61,908 bases of DNA from Meiothermus sp. (GTDB lineage: Bacteria; Deinococcota; Deinococci; Deinococcales; Thermaceae). Positions 6,980 to 57,488 of the stretch are shown in pieces. Position 1 is the first letter of the stretch. Each line of letters opens with the position of its first letter. The stretch is from positions 1 through 61,908 of the forward strand of contig NZ_JANXCG010000020.1 in assembly GCF_025060375.1 (NCBI RefSeq), read 5' to 3'. Under the pieces are notes generated by a model that did no database searches, was not told where the DNA came from, and was given only the letters and a program-made list of their open reading frames with translations. A program made the translations under genes and the position numbers.

Positions 6980-7435
6980 GTGGAGCAGGACTACTCCCTC
7001 GAGCAAATTGTGGCGGAGGCGCTCCACCCGCTGGGCTACGAGGTGCTGGAAGTGGGGCTTAGGCCCTCGGGGCGTTCGCGGGTGCTTCTGGTAAAAATTG
7101 AGCGCCGGGACGAGGCCCCCATCACAGTAGCCGACCTCGAGCGGGCCAGCCAAAGCCTCTCGAGCCACCTGGACCGGTACGACCCCATTGCGGGTAGATA
7201 CCTCCTGCAGGTCGAGTCGCCCGGCCCCCAACGCCCCCTGCTCACCGCCCGCCACTTCGAGCGCTTTGCAGGGCTCAAGGTCCGGGTGCGCAGCCCCGAG
7301 GGCAGCTTTACCGCCCGGGTCGTAGGGGTGCAGGAGGACCAGGTGGAGTTTGAGCTGGACAACCGGGAGACCCGCCGGCTGAAGGTCGGCAGCTTCAAGG
7401 CCAACCTGGCCGAGTGGCCCGAACAACCCAGATAA
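6980..7435 (+). CDS. rimP: Ribosome maturation factor RimP
   Basis: This 151-residue protein is the 30S maturation factor that acts before S12/S13 assembly. The two-domain RimP layout is seen: an alpha/beta N-terminal domain (EQIVAEALHPLGYEVLEVGL, then ERASQSLSSHLD and a YLLQVESPGPQRPL block that matches the family LEVSSPGxxRPL) and an Sm-like C-terminal barrel (FTARVVGVQEDQVEFEL). The GTG start follows a strong GAGGAGGTGAGG. It is the first gene of the classic rimP-nusA-ylxR-infB operon, nine bases before nusA. Confidence 0.93.
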   Translation: MEQDYSLEQIVAEALHPLGYEVLEVGLRPSGRSRVLLVKIERRDEAPITVADLERASQSLSSHLDRYDPIAGRYLLQVESPGPQRPLLTARHFERFAGLKVRVRSPEGSFTARVVGVQEDQVEFELDNRETRRLKVGSFKANLAEWPEQPR

Positions 7436-43834: not shown

Positions 43835-43864
43835 TTGACACCATGCCATCCGCATCCCTATACT
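43835..43864 (+). promoter_or_regulatory. Strong promoter of the NMT1-type transporter/urate cluster
   Basis: TTGACA at 43835-43840 and TATACT at 43859-43864, spaced 18 bases, are the best consensus match in the window. An unusually AT-rich stretch (43725-43800) lies upstream and could be an UP-like or operator region. AAGGAGGT at 43888-43895 precedes the ATG at 43901. Confidence 0.75.
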
Positions 43865-43900
43865 CAGCCCAGGTGTCTTGGCACCGTAAGGAGGTTTGCT

Positions 43901-44917
43901 ATGTGGACCCGAGGTCTGCTCCTTGCCCTTTTTTTCCTAATCAGCCTGGGCCTGGCCCAACCCCGCAGCCTGCGCTTCACCCTCGACTTCGCCTTCCAGG
44001 GCCCCACCGCACCCTTCCTGCTCGCCCAGGACAAGGGCTACTACAGTGCCGAGGGGCTCAACGTGAGCATTGACCGGGGTTTTGGCTCGGCTGATGCCAT
44101 TAGCAAGATCGCTGCAGGCAACTACGATATGGGCTTTGCGGACTTCAACTCGCTCATCGAGTTCAACACCCGCAACCCCAACAACCAGCTCCTGGCCGTC
44201 TTCATGGTCTACAACACCACCCCTGCCGCGGTTTTCACCCTCAGGGGCAGGGGCATCGCCCGGCCTACCGACCTGGTGGGCAGGACCCTAGCCGCCCCTG
44301 CCGGAGACGCAGGCCGCCGACTCTTCCCGGTCTTCGCCGAGGCGGTGGGTATTGACCCCGCTCGGGTTAACTTCATCAACGTGGACGTGCCTCTGCGCGA
44401 GCCTACCCTGGCCCGGGGCCAAGCCGACGGCATTACCGGCTTCTACTTCACCTCCTTCCTCAACCTGCGCAACATCGGGGTCAGACCCGAGGATATGGTG
44501 ATTTTCAAGTACAGCGACTACACCCAAGACCTCTACGGCAACGCGGTAGTGGTGCGCCGCGACTTCGCCCAGGCCAACCCCCAAGCGGTCTCAGCGTTCT
44601 TACGCGCGCTGGTCAAGGGCTTCAAGGACGTCATCGCCAACCCTGACGAGGGCATTGCTGCGGTCAAGCGGCGCGACGGGCTCATCAACGACGCCTTGGA
44701 GCGCGAGCGGCTACTTCTAGCCCTCAACACCCACGTGCTCACCCCGGACAGCCGGGCCTTCGGCTTGGGCTCGGTGCGGCGCGAACGGGTGGAGCGGAAC
44801 ATCCGAGCAGTGGCCAAAGCCTTTGAGCTGCCCAGCGTGCTTCGGGTTGAGCAGGTCTGGACAGACCGCTTCCTGCCCCCCATCGCTGAGCGGCGGGTCA
44901 CCGGCTCGGCCCGCTGA
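43901..44917 (+). CDS. NMT1/SsuA-like ABC transporter substrate-binding protein
   Basis: This is a periplasmic binding protein of the NMT1/THI5-SsuA family. ATG 43901 with AAGGAGGT gives 338 residues and a Sec signal (TRGLLLALFFLISLGLAQ); no lipobox Cys. The mature part has FTLDFAFQGPTAPFLLAQDKGYYSAEGL, the family start (ligand-side GP, then the KGYY helix), DRGFGSADAISKIAAGNYDMGFADF and LVGRTLAAPAGDAGRRLFPVF. Relatives bind aliphatic sulfonates, pyrimidine precursors or similar rings. The urate cluster that follows suggests a purine catabolite such as urate or allantoin, but the ligand is unknown. Confidence 0.88.
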   Translation: MWTRGLLLALFFLISLGLAQPRSLRFTLDFAFQGPTAPFLLAQDKGYYSAEGLNVSIDRGFGSADAISKIAAGNYDMGFADFNSLIEFNTRNPNNQLLAVFMVYNTTPAAVFTLRGRGIARPTDLVGRTLAAPAGDAGRRLFPVFAEAVGIDPARVNFINVDVPLREPTLARGQADGITGFYFTSFLNLRNIGVRPEDMVIFKYSDYTQDLYGNAVVVRRDFAQANPQAVSAFLRALVKGFKDVIANPDEGIAAVKRRDGLINDALERERLLLALNTHVLTPDSRAFGLGSVRRERVERNIRAVAKAFELPSVLRVEQVWTDRFLPPIAERRVTGSAR

Positions 44918-44920
44918 GCT

Positions 44921-44950
44921 TTGACCCAAATGGGCCTCAGGCGCTAGACT
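44921..44950 (+). promoter_or_regulatory. Promoter upstream of the transporter ATPase gene
   Basis: TTGACC at 44921-44926 and TAGACT at 44945-44950 are 18 bases apart, starting directly after the binding-protein gene. It could give the ATPase and the catabolic operon a second transcript independent of the binding protein. Confidence 0.55.
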
Positions 44951-44962
44951 CGGGGTACTACC

Positions 44963-45766
44963 ATGCCCTTCATTGAGCTGCGCAATGTCAGCCTGCGTTA
45001 CGACAACGGCTACCTGGCGGTAGAAGGGATTAACCTCTCCATAGAGGAGGGGGAGTTCGTGGCCTTGGTAGGCCCCTCGGGCTGCGGCAAGTCCACCCTG
45101 CTGCGGGTCATCTCCGGCCTCCGCCCCCCCAGCACGGGCAAGGCCACCGTTCGCGGCCAACCGGTAGGCGGTACCCCGGTGAGCATTGGGATGGCCTTCC
45201 AGAACCCCACCCTGATGCCCTGGCGCACCGTGCTGCAGAACATCCTGCTGCCCCTCGAGGTCTCCCCCAAGCACAAGCACCACTACCGCCAAAACCCCAA
45301 GCCCTACGTTGAGGCTGCCCGCGAGCTGATGGCCTCGGTAGGGCTTTCCGGCTTTGAGAACGCCCACGTATGGGAGCTCTCGGGGGGCATGCAGCAGCGC
45401 GCCAGCCTGTGTCGGGCCCTCATCCACCAGCCCGAAATCCTGATGCTGGACGAGCCCTTCTCGGCGCTGGACGCCTTCACCCGCGAAGAACTCTGGCAGG
45501 CCATGCAGGTGCTCTACCTGAACCGCAGGCCCACCGTCATCCTGGTCACCCACGACCTGCGCGAGGCGGTCTACCTGTCCGACACCATCTACACCATGAG
45601 TTCTCGTCCCGGCAGAATCGCCCATATGCGCAAGGTGGGGTTCGCCCGACCCAGGGCCCTCGAGCTCACCTACCAGGATGAGTTTGCCCACATCGTGCGG
45701 GAGCTTCGGGAGCAGATTGGAGGCATGCGCAGCCAAATTACCGGCCTCAAGGGGGTAGGGGCATGA
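44963..45766 (+). CDS. ABC transporter ATP-binding protein (SsuB/TauB-like)
   Basis: This is the 267-residue ATPase of the importer. Walker A is VGPSGCGKST, the Q-loop is MAFQNPTLMPWRTV (characteristic of nitrate/sulfonate/taurine-type ATPases), the signature is ELSGGMQQRASLCRAL, Walker B is ILMLDEPFSALD and the switch His is in LVTHDLREAV. The C-terminal tail is short, without a regulatory domain. It overlaps the permease gene by four bases. Confidence 0.93.
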   Translation: MPFIELRNVSLRYDNGYLAVEGINLSIEEGEFVALVGPSGCGKSTLLRVISGLRPPSTGKATVRGQPVGGTPVSIGMAFQNPTLMPWRTVLQNILLPLEVSPKHKHHYRQNPKPYVEAARELMASVGLSGFENAHVWELSGGMQQRASLCRALIHQPEILMLDEPFSALDAFTREELWQAMQVLYLNRRPTVILVTHDLREAVYLSDTIYTMSSRPGRIAHMRKVGFARPRALELTYQDEFAHIVRELREQIGGMRSQITGLKGVGA

Positions 45767-46524
45767 GCCTGCGCAAGGATACCCTGGTCGCAGCGCTGGC
45801 CGTGGTGGGGCTGTTCGCGCTTTGGGAGGCCTCGGTGCGGCTTTTTGGGATTCCCCCCTTCGTGCTGCCCTCCCCCTCCCAAGCCGTCCTATCCCTGGTC
45901 CCGGTCTGGGGGGTGGTGGTGGGACATGCCTGGCAGACCCTCTGGACGACCCTGGCAGGGTTTGGGCTGGCGGTGGCAACGGGGGTGCTCCTGGGGGCAG
46001 CGGTGGGCACCTCCCGGCCCCTCAACCTGGCCCTCTACCCCCTCCTGGTGGGCTTCAACAGCGTGCCCAAGGCGGCTTTGGTGCCGGTGCTGGTGTTGTG
46101 GTTTGGCATCGGGACAGTGCCGGCCATCCTAACCGCTTTCCTGATCTCGTTTTTCCCCATCGTGGTCAACGTGGCCACCGGTCTGGCGGCGGTACCCCCG
46201 GAACTGCGGGAGGTGCTCAGGGTGTTGGGCTCGAGCCGGCTGGAGGCCTTCACCCGGGTCTCCATCCCCTTCTCCATGCCTTACTTCTTCGCCTCGCTCA
46301 AAGTGGCCATCACGCTGGCTTTTGTGGGGGCAGTTATCTCCGAAATTGCCGCCTCCCAGAAGGGCATCGGCTACATGATGACCTCAGCCAGCTCGCAGTT
46401 CAATGTTCCCTTGGTCTTTGGTGGGCTCCTGGTCATCGCGGCCATGGGCATCCTGCTCTACGCTGTTTTTGCCCTGCTCGAGCGCCGCTTGGTGGGCTGG
46501 GCTTACCGCAATCAAAGCGCCTGA
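45763..46524 (+). CDS. ABC transporter permease (SsuC/TauC-like)
   Basis: This is a 253-residue inner-membrane protein with about six helices. Features of the family: LWEASVRLFGIPPFVLPSPSQ near the N-terminus (with the LPSP turn), GFNSVPKAALVPVLVLWFG, and the EAA loop ELREVLRVLGSSRLEAFTRVSIPFSMPYFFASLKVA in two parts. The mature complex would be a homodimer of this permease with two ATPases. The stop TGA at 46522-46524 is followed at once by uraD (46526), linking transport and urate degradation. Confidence 0.92.
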   Translation: MSLRKDTLVAALAVVGLFALWEASVRLFGIPPFVLPSPSQAVLSLVPVWGVVVGHAWQTLWTTLAGFGLAVATGVLLGAAVGTSRPLNLALYPLLVGFNSVPKAALVPVLVLWFGIGTVPAILTAFLISFFPIVVNVATGLAAVPPELREVLRVLGSSRLEAFTRVSIPFSMPYFFASLKVAITLAFVGAVISEIAASQKGIGYMMTSASSQFNVPLVFGGLLVIAAMGILLYAVFALLERRLVGWAYRNQSA

Positions 46525-46525
46525 T

Positions 46526-47023
46526 ATGACCCTGGACGAACTCAACCGGCTTCCCCTCGAGGACTTCGTGGAAAAGGTGGGTTGGGTCTTCGAGGGCTCC
46601 CCTTGGATTGCCCAGGCGGCCTGGGAGAGCCGCCCCTGGGCGAGCCTGGAGGCCCTCCACCAAAGCCTGGTAAGGGTGGTGCAAAGGGCCCCTCGGGAAG
46701 CGCAGCTCGCCCTGATTCGAGCCCACCCCGACCTGGGCAGCCGCACCCGCATGGCCGAGGCCTCCCAGGCTGAACAGAGGGGGGCGGGCCTGGACACCCT
46801 CACCCCCGCCGAATACGAACGCATTCAGGTCCTGAACCGGGCCTACACCGAGAGGTTCGGCTTTCCCTTCATTCTGGCGGTGCGCGGGAAGGGCAAAGCC
46901 GAGGTCTTCCGGGCTATGGAGGCCAGGCTCGAGAGCGACCCAGAAACCGAGTTCCAGACGGCCCTCTCGGAGGTCTACAAAATCGCCTACTTTCGCCTTG
47001 CTGACCTGCTCGAGCGGGCTTAG
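46526..47023 (+). CDS. uraD: OHCU decarboxylase (third enzyme from urate to S-allantoin)
   Basis: UraD decarboxylates 2-oxo-4-hydroxy-4-carboxy-5-ureidoimidazoline to S-(+)-allantoin. Start ATG 46526 gives 165 residues, normal for the family; a longer frame overlaps the permease. The all-helical protein has the catalytic motif AHPDLGSR with His67, and NRAYTERFGFPFILAVRGK, the conserved FGFxFIxxxxGK block. It follows the permease by one base and puuD follows after 14, so it is in the middle of the transport-catabolism operon. Confidence 0.94.
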   Translation: MTLDELNRLPLEDFVEKVGWVFEGSPWIAQAAWESRPWASLEALHQSLVRVVQRAPREAQLALIRAHPDLGSRTRMAEASQAEQRGAGLDTLTPAEYERIQVLNRAYTERFGFPFILAVRGKGKAEVFRAMEARLESDPETEFQTALSEVYKIAYFRLADLLERA

Positions 47024-47037
47024 ACTGCCTACAGAGT

Positions 47038-48351
47038 ATGGACATCCTCAACCAAGACCGCCTGCGCCTGATCAAGTGGCCCTGGCTGCTGGCCCTTCTG
47101 GCCCTCTTCGGCCTGGGGCTGGCCCTGACCCTGGTCCACGGCTGGCAGGCCCACGCCCGAGAATGGCTCAACCTGGTGGTGCGCTGGCTGCACATCATTT
47201 ACGGTATCGCCTGGATTGGGGCCAGCTTCTACTTCATCTTTCTGGAAAACGCCCTGGAACGCCACGGGGTGCGGGCCGAGCTCTCAGGCAACCTCTGGGC
47301 CATCCACGGGGGAGGCATCTACTACCTGGAAAAGTACAAGACCGCCCCAGCCCAGCTCCCCAAGCACCTGCACTGGTTCAAGTGGGACGCCTACCTCACC
47401 TGGGTCACGGGGTTCTTGCTCCTGGTCATCGTCTACTACGCCGACCCCAGGGCCATCCTGCTACCCCCCAACAGCCCCCTCCCCAGCTGGGCGGCTGTGG
47501 CCATCGCGGTGGCCAGCCTCCCAGCCGCCTGGCTGGTCTACGCTGCCCTCTCCAGCACCCAGCTGCTCTACCGCCCAGCCCTCTTCCTGCTGGTGGGCGG
47601 TGCGCTGGTCGCCCTGGCCGCGTATCTGCTTGGCCAGGTGTTCAGCGGGCGGGGTGTCTTCATGCACATCGGGGCCATGCTGGGCACCATCATGGCGGCC
47701 AACGTCTTCTTCGTTATCATCCCCTCCCAGAAAAAGCTGGTGCGGGCCGCGCAGAAGGGTGAAGCCCTAGACCCGGGGTTTGTGGCCTGGGTGCAGCTCC
47801 GTTCCCGGCACAACAACTACCTTACCCTGCCCGTGCTCTTCACCATGATTGCCCACCACTTTCCCTTTACCTACACCCACGGGGCAAACTGGCTCATCCT
47901 GATCCTGCTCTTCGTGGCCGGGGTGGCGGTGCGGCACTTCATCAACGTAACCGAGAAGGAGCACAAGAGAACCCTCGTGGAGGGCGGGGCCATGCCCTAC
48001 CTGCTGGTGGGGGCTGCGGCCTCGGTTCTGGTGGCCTTCTACCTAACCGCCCCCCGCACCCCAACCGCCCAGGTAGACGCCCCGGTCCCCTTCGCCGAGG
48101 TAGAGGCAATGGTCCGACAACACTGCCACATGTGCCACGCCGCGAGGCCCACCCAGCCCGGTTTTGCCTCGGCCCCCGCTGGGGTAATGTTTGACACGCC
48201 CGAGCAGATCGTGGCCCAGGCAGACAAGATCAAGCGAACCGCAGTGGACACCACCTACATGCCCCTTCTGCTGCCCGGGGTGCCCCCGCTGACCCAGGAG
48301 CAGCGGGCCAGGCTTGGGGCCTGGGTGGCCCAGGGGGCCCGGGGGCCCTAG
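47038..48351 (+). CDS. puuD: Membrane-bound urate oxidase PuuD with C-terminal cytochrome c domain
   Basis: PuuD oxidises urate to 5-hydroxyisourate and passes electrons to a cytochrome instead of O2, so it makes no H2O2. The 437-residue protein has about eight or nine membrane helices ([36 protein letters not shown] and [16 protein letters not shown] are typical). A cytochrome c domain in the last 80 residues has CHMCH at 363-367 and a candidate axial Met at about 408 (TTYMPLLLP). Haem must be exported and attached by a Ccm/Ccs system encoded elsewhere. It lies between uraD and uraH. Confidence 0.9.
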
Positions 48352-48361
48352 GAGGTCAGGT

Positions 48362-48718
48362 ATGGCCCGGCTATCCACCCATGTTCTGGACACCACCCAC
48401 GGCCGCCCCGCGGCAGGGATGCGGCTCGAGCTATACCGCTTCGAGGAAGGCGGTGCCCGCACCCTGGTCGCCTCTGCCACCACCAACGCCGACGGCCGGA
48501 CCGACACCCCCCTCCTCTCCGGGGAAACCCTGCCCACCGGGGTCTACGAGCTGGTCTTCTACGTAGCGGAATACTTCGCCGCCCAGGGGGTGCACCTCCC
48601 CAACCCGCCCTTCTTGGGCTCAGTGCCCATCCGTTTTGGCATTGCCGAGCCTCAGGGTCACTACCACGTCCCCCTGCTGGTCTCCCCCTTTGGCTACAGC
48701 ACCTACCGTGGAAGCTAG
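48362..48718 (+). CDS. uraH: 5-hydroxyisourate hydrolase (transthyretin-like)
   Basis: This enzyme opens 5-hydroxyisourate to OHCU, the step between PuuD and UraD. The 118-residue transthyretin-like protein has [16 protein letters not shown] (catalytic His at the N-terminus), TTNADGRT with the catalytic Arg, [19 protein letters not shown] ending in the YRGS tetrapeptide that separates these hydrolases from true transthyretin. AGGAGGT precedes ATG 48362. No signal peptide, so it acts in the cytoplasm. Confidence 0.96.
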
Positions 48719-48723
48719 GGCCC

Positions 48724-49950
48724 ATGGAAGCGCTTAGGACCCTGGCCCAAAAGGCCGTTGAGCGGTGCCAGGTTTTAGCCCACCTCTCTGAGGAGGAGGG
48801 CCGTCTAACCCGTACCTTCCTCTCCCCCCCCATGCGCGAGGTGCATCGGGTGCTGGCCGGCTGGATGGAGGCCTTGGGCATGAACGTGCGGTTGGACGCG
48901 GTGGGCAACCTGATCGGCCACTACCCGGCCCAAAAACCCGATGCCCCTCTGTTCCTGCTCGGTTCCCACGTAGACACCGTGCGGGACGCCGGGCCCTACG
49001 ACGGGGTGCTGGGGGTGGTGCTGGCCCTGGCCCTGGTGGAAGCCCTGGAGGGCGAGCGGCTCCCTTGGGCCCTGGAGGTCATCGCTTTCTCCGAGGAGGA
49101 AGGGGTGCGCTTTGGGGTGCCCTTTTTGGGGAGCAAAGCGGCGGTGGGGCGCTTTGAGACGGAGCTCCTACAGCGCAAGGACGTCCAAGGTCAAAGCCTG
49201 GCCGAGGCCATACGGGCTTTTGGACTTGATCCCGAGCGAATTCCCCAGGCCGCCTACGAACCCGGTCGGGTTAGCGGCTACCTGGAGTTCCACATCGAGC
49301 AGGGACCGGTTCTGGAGAACCTGGGATACCCACTGGGGGTGGTGGAGGCAATCGCCGGGCAGAGCCGGCTCGAGCTCACCTTCATCGGCCAGGCGGGCCA
49401 CGCCGGCACCACCCCCATGCCCTTGCGGCGCGATGCCCTGGCGGGGGCAGCCGAGTGGATGACCTGGGTAGAGCGGGAGGCTCGAAGAACACCGGGGCTG
49501 GTGGCTACGGTGGGCCGAATCGCAGCCCTGCCCGGTGCGGCCAACGTAATCCCGGGTGAGGCACGGCTCAGCCTGGACGTGCGGCACGCTGAAGACGAGG
49601 TAAGGGCCCACGCAGTAGCCCACCTGGTCGGGCGGGCCCAGCAAATTGCACTTCGGCGGGGGCTGGAGCTGGCCTACCAAACCCTGCACGAGCAGCCCGC
49701 AGTGCCTTGCGACCCCTACCTGCGCGAGGCGCTGGCTCAGGCAGTGGAGGCCCAGGGCTACCCCGTGCACCGGATGGTCTCCGGGGCCGGCCACGATGCC
49801 ATGATCATGGCCTCGTTATGCCCCGTGGCCATGCTCTTCCTGCGCAGCCCAAAGGGGCTCTCGCACCACCCTGAGGAGTCGGTGTGGCCCCAGGACGTCG
49901 AGGCCGCCCTGCGGGTGGGGCTCCACTTTCTACGGCAATTGGCGAGGTGA
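48724..49950 (+). CDS. allC: Allantoate amidohydrolase (M20 family)
   Basis: AllC releases CO2 and ammonia from allantoate to give S-ureidoglycine. The 408-residue di-metal M20 enzyme has GSHVDTVRDAGPYDGVLGV (His82, Asp93 ligands) and FSEEEGVRFG (Glu124-126, catalytic and ligand), then HIEQGPVLE and GQAGHAGTTPMPLRRDAL for the dimerisation domain and substrate Arg/His. VSGAGHDAMIMA and GLSHHPEE near the end complete the pattern. The DAGPYDG block is closer to allantoate enzymes than to the second M20 gene at 52049, which differs clearly. Confidence 0.88.
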   Translation: MEALRTLAQKAVERCQVLAHLSEEEGRLTRTFLSPPMREVHRVLAGWMEALGMNVRLDAVGNLIGHYPAQKPDAPLFLLGSHVDTVRDAGPYDGVLGVVLALALVEALEGERLPWALEVIAFSEEEGVRFGVPFLGSKAAVGRFETELLQRKDVQGQSLAEAIRAFGLDPERIPQAAYEPGRVSGYLEFHIEQGPVLENLGYPLGVVEAIAGQSRLELTFIGQAGHAGTTPMPLRRDALAGAAEWMTWVEREARRTPGLVATVGRIAALPGAANVIPGEARLSLDVRHAEDEVRAHAVAHLVGRAQQIALRRGLELAYQTLHEQPAVPCDPYLREALAQAVEAQGYPVHRMVSGAGHDAMIMASLCPVAMLFLRSPKGLSHHPEESVWPQDVEAALRVGLHFLRQLAR

Positions 49951-49952
49951 GA

Positions 49953-51296
49953 ATGCTTGACCTCATCGTACGCGGTGGCACTCTGGTCACCCCCGAGGGG
50001 CTGCAGCGGGCCGACCTGGGGGTAGAGGGTGGGCAAGTAGCGGTCATCGCCCCGGAAATCGCCGAACCGGCCCGACGGGAGGTGTCCGCCCAGGGGCTTT
50101 ACGTCTTCCCCGGCCTGATAGATGTCCACGTCCACTTCAACGAGCCCGGCCAGGCCCACTGGGAAGGCATTGCCACCGGCAGCGCAGCCCTGGCTGCAGG
50201 GGGGGGCACCGCCTTTTTTGACATGCCCCTCAACTCACTGCCCTGCACCCTGGACGGCCCTTCCTTCGACCTCAAGCTCTCAGCCATGAGGGCCCAGTCG
50301 CACACCGACTTTGCGCTGTGGGGTGGCCTGACCCCAAAGAACCTCGAGCGCCTGCCTGAGCTGGCTGAGCGAGGGGTCATCGGTTTCAAGGCCTTCATGT
50401 GCAACTCGGGCCTCCCCGAGTTCCCCGCCTGCGACGACGCTACCCTCTACGAGGGTATGCGCACAGCAGCCCAGCTTGGACTGCCGGTGGCGGTGCACGC
50501 CGAGTCCGAGGCCCTCACCGCCCATCTCACCCAAAAAGCCCGGGCCCTGGGCACCTCCTGGCGGGAGTACCTGGCCTCAAGGCCGGTCTTCACCGAGCTT
50601 GAGGCCATCGGACGGGCCCTCTTGCTGGCCCAGGAGACCGGTTGCAAGCTGCACATCGTACACATCAGCTCAGGCTCAGGGGTAGCCCTGGCTGCCGAGG
50701 CCCGGGCCAAAGGGGTGGACGTGAGCCTGGAGACCTGCCCCCACTACCTGGCCTTCACCGAGGACGACCTGGAGCGGCTGGGGGCGGTGGGCAAGTGCGC
50801 TCCCCCCTTGCGGGCTAGGGCCGAGCAGGAAGGGCTCTGGTCCCATGTTCTGAAGGGAAGCGTGGACATCATCGGTTCCGACCACTCCCCAAGCCCGCCG
50901 GAGATGAAGCGGGGAGAGGACTTCTTCGCCCTTTGGGGAGGCATCGCCGGGGTGCAGTCGACCCTGGCGGTGCTGCTGACCGAGGGCTGGCAGGGACGGG
51001 GCCTACCCCTGGAGCGGCTCGCGGCCCTCCTGGCCCAGGGCCCCGCCCAGCGGTTCGGCCTGACCCGAAAGGGCCGGCTCGAGCCAGGCTGCGACGCCGA
51101 CTTCACCTTGGTCAACCTGGAGCGCGAGCATACCCTGACCTCCCAAGACCTCCGCTACCGCCACGCCATCTCCCCTTACCTAAACCGAACCTTCCGAGGC
51201 ATAGTGGAAAGCACCTGGCTGCGGGGCGAGCCCATCTACGCCGAGGGTAAGATAAGAAAGCCCAGCAGCGTATGCCTGCTCACGAGGGAAGCATGA
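49953..51296 (+). CDS. allB: Allantoinase
   Basis: AllB hydrolyses allantoin to allantoate. The 447-residue amidohydrolase has the metal site DVHVHFNEPG (His59, His61), the carbamylated Lys in GVIGFKAFMCNSG (Lys146), VAVHAES and LHIVHISSG for the next His ligands, and IIGSDHSPSPPEMK with the catalytic Asp. The HFNEPG and KAFMCNSG blocks separate allantoinase from dihydropyrimidinase and dihydroorotase. ATG 49953 is preceded by GCGAGGTGAGA; the longer frame overlaps allC. It overlaps the next gene by four bases. Confidence 0.93.
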   Translation: MLDLIVRGGTLVTPEGLQRADLGVEGGQVAVIAPEIAEPARREVSAQGLYVFPGLIDVHVHFNEPGQAHWEGIATGSAALAAGGGTAFFDMPLNSLPCTLDGPSFDLKLSAMRAQSHTDFALWGGLTPKNLERLPELAERGVIGFKAFMCNSGLPEFPACDDATLYEGMRTAAQLGLPVAVHAESEALTAHLTQKARALGTSWREYLASRPVFTELEAIGRALLLAQETGCKLHIVHISSGSGVALAAEARAKGVDVSLETCPHYLAFTEDDLERLGAVGKCAPPLRARAEQEGLWSHVLKGSVDIIGSDHSPSPPEMKRGEDFFALWGGIAGVQSTLAVLLTEGWQGRGLPLERLAALLAQGPAQRFGLTRKGRLEPGCDADFTLVNLEREHTLTSQDLRYRHAISPYLNRTFRGIVESTWLRGEPIYAEGKIRKPSSVCLLTREA

Positions 51297-52039
51297 GCCT
51301 GACCGGATTCACCCGCACCCATGTAGCCCCCGACCACGCCCTTCTGACCCCCGACACCTTTATCCGGGCCCCCCTGCCGGGCTGGACGAACACCCTCTGC
51401 ATTGTGCACATCTCGCCGGAGCTAGGGGCCCGCTTCAAGATGTACACGGCGGAGATGCAGCCCGGAGGCAGCGGGGAGATGACCCTGCTGGACATCCAGC
51501 GCTTTGCCTATGTCCTTTCGGGACGGGTGGGGCTCGAGGTGGCTGGAGCCCAGCACACCCTAGAACCCCACCGCTACGCCTATCTGCCGGCCAACACCCC
51601 CCACCGCTTCACCGCCTACACGGAAAGCCGGATGGTGGTCTTTGAAAAGCCCTATCAAGCCCTGGCCGGCGCCGAAGCGCCCAGCCTGGTGTTGGGCTTT
51701 GAACCGGAGGTAGCCGCTACTCCCCTGATGGGCGACGAGGCCCTACAGGTGCGCCTCCTGCTCCCAGACCACCCTTCCTTTGACCTGGCGGTCAACACCA
51801 TGACCTTCGAGCCAGGGGCCCACCTGCCCATGGTGGAGACCCACGTCATGGAGCACGGCCTGCTCTTCCTCCAAGGGGGTGGGGTCTACCGTCTGGGGGA
51901 GCGATGGTACCCGGTGCAAACCGGGGATGTGATCTGGATGGCCTCCTACTGTCCCCAGTGGTTTGGCGCCCTGGGCAAGGGCCCGAGCAAGTACCTTATC
52001 TACAAAGACGTCAACCGGCATTCATTGGAACTTCTCTAA
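51293..52039 (+). CDS. allE: (S)-ureidoglycine aminohydrolase (bicupin)
   Basis: This enzyme releases ammonia from S-ureidoglycine to form S-ureidoglycolate; the homologue in E. coli is YlbA/AllE. The 248-residue protein contains two cupin domains (about 45-120 and 165-240). The metal-binding residues of the C-terminal cupin are in place: VETHVMEHG gives Glu182, His184 and His188, and CPQWFG gives Gln222. ATG 51293 overlaps the allB stop (ATGA). It fits exactly between allantoate amidohydrolase and ureidoglycolate amidohydrolase in the pathway. Confidence 0.92.
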   Translation: MSLTGFTRTHVAPDHALLTPDTFIRAPLPGWTNTLCIVHISPELGARFKMYTAEMQPGGSGEMTLLDIQRFAYVLSGRVGLEVAGAQHTLEPHRYAYLPANTPHRFTAYTESRMVVFEKPYQALAGAEAPSLVLGFEPEVAATPLMGDEALQVRLLLPDHPSFDLAVNTMTFEPGAHLPMVETHVMEHGLLFLQGGGVYRLGERWYPVQTGDVIWMASYCPQWFGALGKGPSKYLIYKDVNRHSLELL

Positions 52040-52048
52040 AGAATCACC

Positions 52049-53341
52049 ATGGCGCTAAAACTCCAAATCAACACCGAACGCATTGTGCGGGAGCTCGAGC
52101 AACTGGCCAGCTACTCCGAAACCCCACCGCCAGCCATCACCCGCATCCTCTTTACCCGGCCTGACCTCGAGGCTCGAGCCTACCTAAAGGGGCTGTGCCA
52201 GGAAGCTGGGCTAAAGGTGCGAGAAGACGGCCTGGGCAACCTCTTCGCCCGCTGGGAGGGCAGCGCCCCTGAGCTCCCTGCGGTAGGCACCGGCTCCCAC
52301 ATCGACGCCATTCCCTACGCCGGTATGTACGACGGGACCGTGGGGGTGCTGGGGGGGCTGGAGGCCATCCGAGCGCTAAGGCAAGCTGGCTTCAGGCCGC
52401 GCCGCTCGATAGAGCTTCTGGTCTTCACTGCTGAGGAACCTACCCGCTTTGGCATTGGCTGCCTGGGAAGCCGAGCGCTGAGCGGTACGCTGAATCCGGA
52501 GGCCCTGCGCTTGCTCAGGGACAACGAGGGCAGAAGCCTGGAGGAGGTACGCCAAGCAGCAGGCTACACAGGGCCCCTGGAGGAGGTCCAGCTGCCCGAA
52601 AACTACTACTCTGCCTTCGTAGAGCTACACATTGAGCAAGGGCCGGTGCTGGAGCAGGAGGGGGTGCCGATTGGCGTGGTCACCGCCATTGCTGCTCCAG
52701 CCTCGCTGAGGGTCATCCTAGAGGGCGAAGGAGGCCACGCCGGCACGGTACTGATGCCCGACCGAAAGGACGCCCTCTGCGCGGCTGCGGAGATCATCCT
52801 GGGGGTGGAGGCTTTCGCTCGAGGCAGTGGCAGCATCAACACCGTAGCCACCACCGGGTTTTGCGAGGTCCACCCCAACGCCATCAACAGCGTGCCCAGC
52901 CGGGTCAGGTTGGAGATTGATGTGCGCGACGTGGAGCAAAACCGGCGCGACCAGGTAATCCGGAACATCCTGCAGGGCGTAGAACAGGTCTGTACCAGGC
53001 GCAGCATCCGCTACAGCGTGGAGATTATCAACATGGACCCCCCCGCCAAGTCGGGCTCCGAGGTCCTGAAGGCCCTGGTGGAGGCCTGCGGCGAGGCCTC
53101 GGTGCGCTTCAAGCTAATGGTGAGCCGGGCCTACCACGACTCCTTGTTCATGGCCCGCATCGCCCCTACCGCCATGCTCTTCATCCCCTGCCGGGGAGGG
53201 ATAAGCCACCGTCCGGACGAGTACGCCAGCCCGGAGGACATCGCTCAGGGGGTGCGGGTGCTGGCCCTTGCCCTAGCCAAACTCTCCCAAGCCGAGGAGA
53301 AAACCCCCCCCAAGGATGAGCCCCTCACCCTAAACGACTGA
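52049..53341 (+). CDS. Ureidoglycolate amidohydrolase (plant UAH-like M20 enzyme)
   Basis: This is the second M20-family gene in the cluster, 430 residues, and quite different from allC. It has GTGSHIDAIPYAGMYDGTVGVLG (His84, Asp95) with the DAIPYxGxYDG pattern that I know from plant ureidoglycolate amidohydrolase, plus TAEEPTRFGIGCLGSRAL, FVELHIEQGPVLE, VVTAIAAPASLRV and SRAYHDSLFMARIAP, all close to the plant enzyme. It would convert ureidoglycolate to glyoxylate, CO2 and two ammonia. An N-carbamoyl-amino-acid hydrolase is the alternative. Last gene of the urate run; the C-terminal tail (about 20 residues) is Lys/Glu/Pro-rich. Confidence 0.85.
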   Translation: MALKLQINTERIVRELEQLASYSETPPPAITRILFTRPDLEARAYLKGLCQEAGLKVREDGLGNLFARWEGSAPELPAVGTGSHIDAIPYAGMYDGTVGVLGGLEAIRALRQAGFRPRRSIELLVFTAEEPTRFGIGCLGSRALSGTLNPEALRLLRDNEGRSLEEVRQAAGYTGPLEEVQLPENYYSAFVELHIEQGPVLEQEGVPIGVVTAIAAPASLRVILEGEGGHAGTVLMPDRKDALCAAAEIILGVEAFARGSGSINTVATTGFCEVHPNAINSVPSRVRLEIDVRDVEQNRRDQVIRNILQGVEQVCTRRSIRYSVEIINMDPPAKSGSEVLKALVEACGEASVRFKLMVSRAYHDSLFMARIAPTAMLFIPCRGGISHRPDEYASPEDIAQGVRVLALALAKLSQAEEKTPPKDEPLTLND

Positions 53342-53373: not shown

Positions 53374-54480
53374 ATGCGCCTCTTCCCACCCCTCCGCGAA
53401 GACCCCCTCGCCGAGCTTTTCCACACCCACCCCCCTGCAGGGGAGCCCTGGGCTTGGGTCCTCTGCCGGCGCATCTGGTATGCCGAAGGCCTGGCCCGAA
53501 GGCTGCTCACCGAGCCCCTCACGCCAGGGCTGAGCGACTGGATTGAGCAGGAACTCTCCACTCTGCGGCATGAACTTGCCCAGCTCAAGCAGCGCTACCC
53601 TTTCGCCGACTTCGGCCAGCGCGGGGCCAGCCCCGCCGAGCAAGCCGCCCTGCGGGTGCTACAGGGCGGCTCGGCCTCCGAGCTACAGGCCCTCTACCGC
53701 ACCTACGGGTACGGGATATACGCAGAGCACACGGCCTTTCTTTACGATCGAGGGATGGTGCCGGTACCCCACCCCGACCCAGCCCGTTTCAGCGACCTGG
53801 TGGGCTACACCCGGCAACTCCAAACCCTAAGGCAGCATGTGGAGGGTTTCCTGGAGGGAAAAGAAGCGGTTCCAGTGCTCCTCTACGGGGCTCGAGGCTC
53901 AGGAAAGTCCACCGCGGTCAAGGCCCTGCGCACCGAGTACAGCCCAAGGGGACTCCGACTGGTGGAGGTACTGCCCGACAGCCTCGATCAACTCCCCGCG
54001 CTCTTGACCCTGCTGGCCCCCCTACCCCACCGCTTCGTGCTCTACCTAGACGACTTGGCCTTCAGCAGCGACGACGAGCGCTTCCACAAGCTCAAAGCCC
54101 TACTGGAAGGAGCCGTCTACGAACGGCCCCCCAACGTGCTGGTGGTGGCCACCTCCAACCGGCGCAACCTGGTGCGCGAGCAGTGGAGCGACCGCCCGGA
54201 GCCCAACGCTCCCGACCCTGCCTCTTGGGACACCCTTCAGGACAAACTGGCCCTAGCCGATCGCTTCGGTCTGGTCCTCACCTTCCCTCCCTTTGACCAG
54301 CCGCTCTACCTAGAAGCGGTGGCCCATATCCTGGGAAGGCCCCTGGACGAGGCCACCCGCCAGGCCGCGCTGCGCTTCGCCCTGGAGGGCCGGGGTTTTT
54401 CAGGCCGTACAGCCCGCCAATTCGCCGCCACTCAAAGCCCCCTCAAACCCGGATGCGCTCCGGGGCAGCGTAAAGGTTGA
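53374..54480 (+). CDS. DUF815 AAA-type ATP-binding protein
   Basis: The 368-residue protein contains a P-loop ATPase of the DUF815 group in its second half: Walker A VLLYGARGSGKSTAVKA, Walker B FVLYLDDLAFSSDDE, then LKALLEGAVYERPPNVLVVATSNRRNLV and DRFGLVLTFPPFDQPLYLEAV (sensor regions and lid). The N-terminal half (1-150) is helical and family-specific. The function of DUF815 proteins is not established. ATG 53374 lies eight bases after a TAGAAT box that sits in the loop of an inverted repeat (53354-53373). It converges with fdhD and overlaps it by 38 bases. Confidence 0.88.
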   Translation: MRLFPPLREDPLAELFHTHPPAGEPWAWVLCRRIWYAEGLARRLLTEPLTPGLSDWIEQELSTLRHELAQLKQRYPFADFGQRGASPAEQAALRVLQGGSASELQALYRTYGYGIYAEHTAFLYDRGMVPVPHPDPARFSDLVGYTRQLQTLRQHVEGFLEGKEAVPVLLYGARGSGKSTAVKALRTEYSPRGLRLVEVLPDSLDQLPALLTLLAPLPHRFVLYLDDLAFSSDDERFHKLKALLEGAVYERPPNVLVVATSNRRNLVREQWSDRPEPNAPDPASWDTLQDKLALADRFGLVLTFPPFDQPLYLEAVAHILGRPLDEATRQAALRFALEGRGFSGRTARQFAATQSPLKPGCAPGQRKG

Positions 54481-55288
54481 AACCTGTCCGCAAAAAACCG
54501 ACCAGCGTGAGGTGGAAGGCCCGGGCCAAGTCCACCGCCAGGCTGCTGGGGGCCGAGAGGGCCACCAGGATGGGCACACCGCCAGCCAAGGCTTTCTGCA
54601 CCAGCTCAAAGCTGGCCCGCCCGCTGACCAGGAGCAGGCACTCGGACAGGGGCAACCGGCCTTCCAGTAGGGCCCAGCCCAAAAGCTTGTCCACAGCGTT
54701 GTGCCGGCCCACATCCTCCCGTAGCGCCAGCAAGACGCCCTCGGGGTCAAAAAGGGCTGCCGCGTGCAGTCCGCCGGTAGCCCCGAAAAGGGCCTGGCGG
54801 GCCAGCAACCTATGGGGCAGGTCCGGCAACAGATGGGCAGACACGATAGGGCCGCCCTGGAGGGGGCGGAAACGGCGGTGTAGACCCTCCAGGCTAGCCC
54901 GCCCACAAACCCCACAGGCCGAGTGGGTGTAGAAGTGACGTTCAAAGGGAGCCAGCTCGGGCAGGCGCGGGGCGTTTAGGACCACACTCACCACGTTATA
55001 CTGCTGGGCCTCGCCCCGCGGCGTACAGTAGCTGATGCGTCGGATTTCCTCCCTGTGGGAGACAATCCCTTCAGCGAACAGGAAGCCCGCGGCGAGCTCG
55101 AAGTCGTGACCCGGGGTGCGCATCGTAACCGCCACGGTGCGCACCTCCCCTCCCTGGGCCACCAGGCGAATCTCCAGCGGCTCCTCGGTGGCCAGGTAGT
55201 CAGACCTCGGATAGGCCCGCTCCCCTTCAACCCGCAGCAGGGTGGTCGGGGTCTTGGCTTTGGGGCGGCTTTTGGTAAACGTGAACAT
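54443..55288 (-). CDS. fdhD: Formate dehydrogenase accessory sulfurtransferase FdhD
   Basis: FdhD transfers sulfur from a cysteine desulfurase to the molybdenum cofactor of formate dehydrogenase-type enzymes. The 281-residue protein has TEEPLEIRL, MRTPGHDFELAAGFLFAEGI, the sulfur-carrying Cys pair in HSACGVCGRAS (C125, C128), LREDVGRHNAVDKLLGWAL and LVSGRASFELVQKAL. Its start lies 62 bases inside the molybdoenzyme gene just upstream, which suggests tight coupling with its client. It overlaps the DUF815 gene tail to tail. Confidence 0.95.
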   Translation of the reverse strand: MFTFTKSRPKAKTPTTLLRVEGERAYPRSDYLATEEPLEIRLVAQGGEVRTVAVTMRTPGHDFELAAGFLFAEGIVSHREEIRRISYCTPRGEAQQYNVVSVVLNAPRLPELAPFERHFYTHSACGVCGRASLEGLHRRFRPLQGGPIVSAHLLPDLPHRLLARQALFGATGGLHAAALFDPEGVLLALREDVGRHNAVDKLLGWALLEGRLPLSECLLLVSGRASFELVQKALAGGVPILVALSAPSSLAVDLARAFHLTLVGFLRTGFNLYAAPERIRV

Positions 55289-57488
55289 ACGCCTCTTTGT
55301 AGGCCGGAATCTTAGCCTTGGGGGAGCGTTCCTGAGGGCTCAGCAGCACGTTGCCTTCCGGCCAGTGCACCTGCAGGCTACCCGGGCGCACCGGGGCCTC
55401 GAAGACCCGGCCCGCAAAGGTACCGAAGCAGTTGTGCAGCCAGATGCGCTGGCCAGGCTTTAGGCCGAGCCTCTCCCGGTCGAAAGGGCTCATCAGCACG
55501 GCATCGCGGGGCGCGCCGTTGACCGGATCGGTAGGCTCGTGAACCATGCTGTTGAACTGCTTGCCCCTTCTTGTAACCAAGCGGAAAGCCCCCTCGGGTA
55601 GGCCCTCCTGTGAAAGGTCTACCGGCCGGAAACGGGCCTTGCCATCGGGAGTGGGACAGAGCCCATCCTTGCAGAGGTGGGGTCCACCGTATTGGAAGGC
55701 GTCCCCCTTAGCCTTGAGGTGCTGGATGCCCTCATAAAGCGGAATCACCCGGGCAATTTCCTCCCGCACAGCCTGGGTGCTCCCAAAGCAAACCTTCTCA
55801 GCCCTTTCAGGCTTGCACATCCGGGCCAGCAGGTCCTGGAAAACCTGCCCCTCCCAGCGGGCCTCCGGGATGCGAGGACCGGGAATCTCCGGGCTGAAGA
55901 TGACCCGCCGCTCGGTGCTGGTCTCGGTGCACCCCCCAGGAATCTCATAGCGGGTGGTGGCAGGCAGCACGAATACCTCCTCAGCCGGCTCCACCAACAT
56001 CTGGGAGGAAAGGACGATGTCCTGGTGCACCCGCAGGGGTATCTGGGCCAGACGGGCCTCGGCCTGGGAGGGGCTGGGCAGGGTTTCCAGGAAATTCCCC
56101 CCTATGCTCCAGAGAACCTCCAGGCCAGCCTCGAGCATCTCCGTAGCGGTGAGACCGGGCTGGTCGGGTACCGGAAAACCCCAAAGGCTAGAGAGGGCCT
56201 GGGCGCTTTGCGGGGTAATGGGCACACCCCCGGGGAAAACCGTGGCGTAGGCCCCCATCTCGGCCCCACCCTGCACCCCAGAGTGACCCCGGATGGGCAT
56301 CAATCCGCAGCCCTCGCGCCCCAGGTAGCCTCGGCTAAGGGCCAGGTTAATAACGGCTTGCACGGCCTCCTCCCCTCGGGTGTGCTGGGTGAGGCCCATA
56401 CTCCAGACCAGCACCGCCCGCTCAGCCTTGGCCAGCAACAGGGCAAACTCGAGCATCTCCCGGCGGCCCACCCCCGAGCGCCGCTCGAGCTCCTCCCACG
56501 CTGTTCCCAAGGCCTGAGCCCGCACCGCCTCAAACCCCGTGGTGTGGGCCTCGATGAAGGGTTCGTTCAGCCAGCCCTGCTCAATAAGGTGGCGTAAAAC
56601 CCCCACTAAAAAGGCCGCATCCCCCCCTGGGGCAACCAGGAAGAATCGGTCCGCCACCTTGGTCCCAAAGAGGGCGCTTTCGAGGTTGGAAGGAACCCAG
56701 TAGCGCTCCATGGCCGGCTCGCGGTAGGGGTTCACGCAAACCACCCGGGTACCGGCCTTCCTAGCGTAGTGCAGGTACTTCATCATCACCGGCTGATTGG
56801 CCGCCGGGTTGGAACCCAAAAACACCACCAGGTCGGTACCAATCAGGTCGCGGTAGCTGCAGGTGGTGGCTGCTACCCCGAGCGACTCCTTCAGGGCCAC
56901 CGTGCTCGGGCTGTGGCAGATGCGGGCCGCATTGTCTATGTTGTTGCAACCCAAGGCCCGCACCGCCTTTTGCACCACGTAGTAGGTCTCGTTGGGCAGG
57001 CCCCGGCTGGTCAGGTAAAAGCCCATTTTCTCCGGGGGGGTCCTGCACATCCGAAGGGCAATCCGGTCCAACGCCTCGTCCCAGCCTATACGGGTAAAGC
57101 CCGGCTCCCCCTTGCGGCGGTACAGGGGGTAAGGTAGGCGGCCTAGGGCCCGCAGCTCGGCGGAACTCCTGGACCGGAGTGCGGCCACATCGGCCAGTAG
57201 GTTGCCGTCCATAGGCCCCATGGTGTTCAACCGGAGAAGCCGGAGCCGAACGTTGCAAAGGTGTATCCCCTCAACCGTCCAGTCCCGCAGGCCGCTTGTT
57301 CCAAGGGCGCAACCATCGCAGACCCCCTGGCTCAGGATGCGCCAGGCATAGGCCAGGTTATCGCGGTTTTCGGCAACGGCCCGAAAGACCTCGGCAAAGT
57401 TGTTGGGCCTTTGCAGGCCCAGACCAAAGGGCCTGAGGCTGGCCCAGGTCTCCGGGCTCCAACCCTTCTTCACTGGCCTTAGCGCCAC
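55227..57488 (-). CDS. YdeP/FdhF-type molybdopterin oxidoreductase (formate dehydrogenase-like)
   Basis: The 753-residue enzyme binds bis-MGD. CDGCALG at C57-C60 is the mark of the YdeP/FdhF-type subfamily, which lacks the N-terminal 4Fe-4S motif of classical formate dehydrogenase. NAARICHSPSTVAL places Cys191 as the probable Mo ligand where FDH-H has Sec; CHSPS and LVVFLGSNPAANQPVMMKYL follow, and the C-terminal beta-barrel (GPRRDAVLMSPFDRERLGLKPGQ in part) binds MGD. It starts with GTG 57488, six bases after TATAAT (leaderless). With fdhD it forms a two-gene unit. True formate oxidation is unproven for this subfamily. Confidence 0.88.
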   Translation of the reverse strand: MALRPVKKGWSPETWASLRPFGLGLQRPNNFAEVFRAVAENRDNLAYAWRILSQGVCDGCALGTSGLRDWTVEGIHLCNVRLRLLRLNTMGPMDGNLLADVAALRSRSSAELRALGRLPYPLYRRKGEPGFTRIGWDEALDRIALRMCRTPPEKMGFYLTSRGLPNETYYVVQKAVRALGCNNIDNAARICHSPSTVALKESLGVAATTCSYRDLIGTDLVVFLGSNPAANQPVMMKYLHYARKAGTRVVCVNPYREPAMERYWVPSNLESALFGTKVADRFFLVAPGGDAAFLVGVLRHLIEQGWLNEPFIEAHTTGFEAVRAQALGTAWEELERRSGVGRREMLEFALLLAKAERAVLVWSMGLTQHTRGEEAVQAVINLALSRGYLGREGCGLMPIRGHSGVQGGAEMGAYATVFPGGVPITPQSAQALSSLWGFPVPDQPGLTATEMLEAGLEVLWSIGGNFLETLPSPSQAEARLAQIPLRVHQDIVLSSQMLVEPAEEVFVLPATTRYEIPGGCTETSTERRVIFSPEIPGPRIPEARWEGQVFQDLLARMCKPERAEKVCFGSTQAVREEIARVIPLYEGIQHLKAKGDAFQYGGPHLCKDGLCPTPDGKARFRPVDLSQEGLPEGAFRLVTRRGKQFNSMVHEPTDPVNGAPRDAVLMSPFDRERLGLKPGQRIWLHNCFGTFAGRVFEAPVRPGSLQVHWPEGNVLLSPQERSPKAKIPAYKEAYVHVYQKPPQSQDPDHPAAG

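Follow-up and report, generated by a model that had tools for sequence, protein, structure and literature searches.

The window, a stretch of 61,908 nucleotides that forms contig C33 of a 2.39 Mb, 99.8% complete genome, carries ten intact genes on the + strand between positions 43901 and 53341: those for an NMT1-type binding protein, an ABC ATPase, a permease, UraD, PuuD, UraH, AllC, AllB, AllE and a second M20-family enzyme (UAH), in this order (Table 1). Its PuuD shares 95% identity with the Meiothermus luteus protein and 80–84% with those of most other Meiothermus; we therefore assign the host to Meiothermus, as a close relative of M. luteus. An earlier note on this DNA, made from the letters alone, had described a single-direction run of genes that overlap or are spaced by 14 bases at most. 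All of the genes were found, intact and in one orientation. This spacing applies between the ATPase and UAH genes, with the binding-protein gene lying 45 bases further up; over the ten genes the junctions range from that 45-base gap down to a 4-base overlap: binding protein–ATPase 45, ATPase–permease −4, permease–UraD 1, UraD–PuuD 14, PuuD–UraH 10, UraH–AllC 5, AllC–AllB 2, AllB–AllE −4 and AllE–UAH 9 bases. Three starts were corrected, to ATG 43901 for the binding protein (with AAGGAGG ahead of it), ATG 46526 for UraD and ATG 51293 for AllE; position 43835 was rejected as a start codon, being the TTG of a −35 box.

Table 1. Features of the ureide locus, in window coordinates
Feature	Coordinates	Strand	Evidence
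sigma-70 promoter TTGACA-N18-TATACT	43835..43864	+	11/12 consensus bases; kept across Meiothermus
short leader hairpin GGTG..CACC	43867..43894	+	genus conservation, paired stem change
NMT1/THI5-like ABC substrate-binding protein, apparent secretion signal	43901..44917	+	Pfam PF09084, 134 bits
ABC transporter ATPase, SsuB/TauB/NrtD type	44963..45766	+	Pfam ABC_tran; under the cut-offs of the NCBIfam taurine/nitrate ATPase models
ABC transporter permease	45763..46524	+	Pfam BPD_transp_1
UraD, OHCU decarboxylase	46526..47023	+	TIGR03164 197.7 bits, cut-off 96; RAHPDL motif
PuuD, membrane urate oxidase, C-terminal cytochrome c motif	47038..48351	+	PF06181 361 bits
UraH, 5-hydroxyisourate hydrolase	48362..48718	+	TIGR02962 132 bits, cut-off 87; C-terminal YRGS
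AllC-type allantoate amidohydrolase, M20 family	48724..49950	+	NF006775 598 bits, cut-off 479
AllB, allantoinase	49953..51296	+	NF004839 679 bits (cut-off 631); TIGR03178 557 (cut-off 358)
AllE, (S)-ureidoglycine aminohydrolase, two-cupin	51293..52039	+	TIGR03214 305 bits, cut-off 200
UAH, ureidoglycolate amidohydrolase, M20 family	52049..53341	+	482 bits, 54.5% identity to Arabidopsis UAH 4pxe

The promoter ends 36 bases ahead of the binding-protein start codon, and TTGACA-N17/18-TATACT recurs at a near-equal distance upstream in M. luteus, M. hypogaeus, KatS3mg071 and other Meiothermus genomes, with a weaker −35 box in two loci (L029 and L059). Judged by its match to consensus and its recurrence, this is a strong, conserved sigma-70 promoter from which the whole operon is probably read, and we would therefore predict that the NMT1-type ABC transporter is co-expressed with the enzymes. 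Directly ahead of the AAGGAGG ribosome site, the short hairpin is conserved genus-wide, its stem altered on both sides (GGCGC/GCGCC) in one species (L029 and L059); it may be a leader hairpin or serve as an operator. Its pattern has a single match in the genome and was found neither before xdh nor before uraD in transporter-less genomes, and the folding energy of the window copy was no better than that of shuffles. We rejected it as a regulon-wide operator on account of its single copy, its absence before xdh and its ordinary folding energy.

Downstream, 32 bases past UAH, a DUF815 AAA ATPase gene (53374–54480) lies in the same direction and may be reached by read-through from the operon. Genes for FdhD and an FdhF/YdeP-type molybdopterin oxidoreductase (54443–57488, minus strand) converge on the operon from the other side. 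This formate-dehydrogenase-like gene and FdhD are kept in M. luteus and in no other locus compared, and because they are restricted to the closest relative we rejected them as members of the system.

Profile searches upheld all seven enzyme assignments of the earlier note. UraD, UraH, AllC, AllB and AllE passed the curated NCBIfam equivalog cut-offs; the M20 and cupin proteins were placed in the named families and not in unrelated ones, and for the last M20 enzyme and the cupin, solved structures agreed. AllE matches Deinococcus DR1152 (1sfn) and Arabidopsis ureidoglycine aminohydrolase (4e2q), and its second cupin retains the metal ligands E-H-H-Q. The Urate_ox_N (DUF989) membrane domain of PuuD scored far above the PF06181 cut-off of 26.9 bits, while its cytochrome domain drew no Pfam hit and was recognised by motif only, with CHMCH at residues 363–367 and Met408 about 40 residues on. 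CXXCH and a distal Met have been reported as the haem ligands of the characterised PuuD family (PMC4562309), and C363, C366, H367 and M408 are invariant in 15 sequences, including those of alphaproteobacteria. The predicted PuuD structure, a model of modest confidence, gave no significant fold match in the PDB. UraH and UraD are encoded alongside PuuD, and soluble uricase is absent from the genome by the Pfam Uricase profile, a search confined to this profile as distinct from those of flavin-type HpxO/HpyO.

The second M20 enzyme is placed by NCBIfam only in the broad allantoate amidohydrolase/hydantoinase-carbamoylase models, as might be expected if it were another allantoate amidohydrolase or an N-carbamoyl amino-acid hydrolase and the pathway stopped at ureidoglycolate. 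We consider this highly improbable: its top match among solved structures is Arabidopsis UAH (4pxe; 482 bits, 54.5% identity over 411 residues), as against 279 bits for L-carbamoylase (3n5f) and 213 bits for E. coli AllC; the operon already contains an AllC, a gene that shows no such preference; and the slot behind AllE is conserved, even in a version of the cluster that has uricase (below). The enzyme also keeps the M20 metal-site and catalytic motifs SHID, YDG, EEP, LHIEQG and SHRPDE, aligned to the same motifs in AtUAH. Since Arabidopsis UAH is its closest solved relative, a plant-type, ammonia-only ending of the pathway is well supported at the level of sequence.

By established biochemistry, urate is broken down by way of 5-hydroxyisourate, OHCU, S-allantoin, allantoate, S-ureidoglycine and S-ureidoglycolate to glyoxylate, all four nitrogens leaving as ammonia. 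In the host, membrane-bound PuuD would convert urate to 5-hydroxyisourate and pass the electrons to its own cytochrome c domain, with no hydrogen peroxide formed; UraH and UraD would yield S-allantoin; AllB would open the allantoin ring; and AllC, AllE and the plant-type UAH would then remove the nitrogens, so that each urate yields glyoxylate, CO2 and four ammonia. The absence of urease proposed in the earlier note was borne out genome-wide, searches with working controls finding neither urease nor the urea-releasing ureidoglycolate lyase AllA in the whole genome; a genome search for allantoicase gave no match, its controls being silent as well. Glyoxylate would probably enter metabolism via malate synthase, which is present in the genome; for glyoxylate carboligase, the genome search returned distant homologues only, all under the cut-off.

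Urate can be supplied by the host's own xanthine dehydrogenase. The window itself holds none, just as the earlier note had said, and xdhABC lies on another contig, C41 (L040), where xdhB (994 bits, cut-off 850) and xdhC (244, cut-off 162) pass and xdhA, at 453.5 bits, falls just below its cut-off of 467. The two other MoCoBD_1 hits (L041, L042) were rejected as xanthine dehydrogenases, with 27–33% resemblance to the true enzyme. XdhABC lies directly behind UAH in M. hypogaeus, as does XdhAB in MAG015 and L034, and in Calidithermus UraD is preceded by XdhABC together with a guanine-deaminase-like gene; judged by these adjacencies, xanthine dehydrogenase forms one functional unit with the ureide genes and is set apart from them in the host species. 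About 1.7 kb from xdh, past an HD-GYP-like gene, are an ABC ATPase, two permeases and an apparent BMP-type binding protein (assigned partly by eye).

The order UraD-PuuD-UraH-AllC-AllB-AllE-UAH was seen again in Meiothermus, Calidithermus and Thermaceae loci, and because the enzyme genes keep it in related Meiothermus and Calidithermus loci, the arrangement is, on this comparison, far beyond chance. Local differences occur: in M. granaticius and MAG015 (L035, L032) uraD is immediately preceded by an M24 creatinase/prolidase-like gene, and M. granaticius also has an IclR regulator gene still farther ahead of uraD and, separating puuD from uraH, a gene for a LysE-type exporter. In a genome of the same order and another family (G108; L100, 6063–17717), whose host we take to be probably Truepera, the genes run UraD-Uricase-UraH-AllB-AllE-UAH-XdhABC. 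Here the urate oxidase slot holds a soluble Uricase (PF01014), non-homologous to PuuD, and no AllC was found between UraH and AllB. As uricase fills the same slot in an otherwise similar cluster, the predicted role of PuuD is supported from genome context alone, and the swap likewise lends independent context support to the membership of UAH in the pathway. The two versions of the slot, both found in a single order, clearly exemplify non-homologous replacement. Together, these data make it very likely (probability about 0.9) that the locus is a complete oxidative purine–ureide operon of a Meiothermus species; the gene identities, order, promoter and conservation are read directly from the DNA, and from them we infer the enzyme activities, electron route, co-transcription and transporter substrate.

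While the earlier note had read the locus almost entirely correctly, its suggestion that the transporter takes up urate, allantoin or a precursor was not established: the uraD junction and co-occurrence with UAH speak for it, and the transporter's losses and the neighbours of a distant homologue against it. The binding protein was matched in 11 of the 18 Meiothermus genomes (in G037 as a 118-residue stub) and in the distant genome G005; seven Meiothermus genomes, some of them fragmentary drafts, lack it, the stub marking an eighth, and PuuD and UAH are present in all 18. In G037, a deletion (L063 5911–6380) has fused binding-protein residue ~118 to the last permease residues, the join sitting at a shared GCGGTGTTTGCC-like stretch; some 2 kb of transporter genes are gone, the promoter and ureide genes are kept, and the promoter runs into uraD. 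In M. taiwanensis, uraD comes directly after hemL, and in the Calidithermus locus the NMT1 genes are absent. By these comparisons, the transporter is a dispensable front module. The G037 UAH gene (G037:C1:489452-490723) lies ~35 kb from uraD-allC, and in M. luteus six residues of the binding protein, IEFNTR, are duplicated in frame (L024, about 7095–7115), a duplication absent from the other aligned copies.

Such losses would also fit a transporter that is merely a neighbour with another job, importing for example a pyrimidine, a thiamine precursor, a sulfonate or another nitrogen compound, with the ureide operon starting at uraD. The ureide genes persist where the binding protein is absent or a stub; the G037 deletion leaves the promoter, 118 binding-protein residues and the permease end ahead of uraD; other genes lie upstream of uraD in Calidithermus and M. 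granaticius; and the 56% homologue in G005 adjoins an Mrp-type ATPase and glycine-cleavage genes, which are unrelated. Because of the losses and the G005 neighbours, the substrate may not be a purine. The closest solved relative of the binding protein is ThiY (3ix1), a weak match, as are taurine-binding proteins, and a separate BMP-type transporter lies near xdh. The binding-protein model (pLDDT 37) was too poor to use for ligand inference. To our knowledge, urate, allantoin and xanthine are not known as a substrate class of the NMT1-type family.

Against an unrelated role stands the single base between permease stop and uraD start in the window, and many species keep this adjacency. UAH is present in each of the 12 genomes with a binding-protein match, including distant G005, and in genus g4 the listed genomes are without UAH and without the binding protein alike, both patterns being confounded by kinship. 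Furthermore, no thiamine (TPP) riboswitch was found upstream of the transporter, the Xan_ur_permease search (xanthine/uracil permeases) showed the genome to be without nucleobase permeases of this family, and the probable shared promoter speaks for a purine or ureide role. We regard the neighbour with another job as possible, though less likely than not. The transporter probably imports a purine or ureide, to judge from its genomic setting; that it takes up urate, allantoin or xanthine with high affinity, forming a removable front module of the Meiothermus ureide operon, is a tentative proposal to which we give slightly less than even odds.

The pathway and every one of its enzymes are of known kinds; what is worth noting is that Meiothermus has the full set, that a plant-like UAH lies in a bacterial operon, that uricase and PuuD are exchanged in one slot, and that the transporter is removable. 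Within literature outside the subscription journals, the pathway seems to be undescribed for Meiothermus, since there 'Meiothermus' and 'allantoin' occurred together only in a hot-spring metagenome survey. The operon brings together, in a thermophile genus, the seven enzymes that lead from urate to glyoxylate, a compact source useful for structure work, including a bacterial UAH close to the plant enzyme and a membrane urate oxidase predicted to be peroxide-free.

PuuD biochemistry has been described for proteobacteria, in Agrobacterium fabrum Atu2314 (PMC4562309). Like those systems, the Meiothermus operon has a membrane urate oxidase with CXXCH and a distal Met, and UraH and UraD alongside with soluble uricase absent; unlike them, it belongs to a Deinococcota host, its PuuD is 42–44% identical to alphaproteobacterial copies, and it extends to UAH with an NMT1-type ABC transporter in front. 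With the Arabidopsis ureide pathway (AAH, UGLYAH, UAH) it shares the three-step hydrolytic release of ammonia, and its AllE and UAH are close to the plant enzymes, but its genes lie in one bacterial operon and PuuD, not a soluble uricase, would perform the urate step. The Deinococcota cluster L100 has UraD, UraH, AllB, AllE and UAH in the same order, with XdhABC behind, and differs in having Uricase in place of PuuD and no AllC between UraH and AllB.
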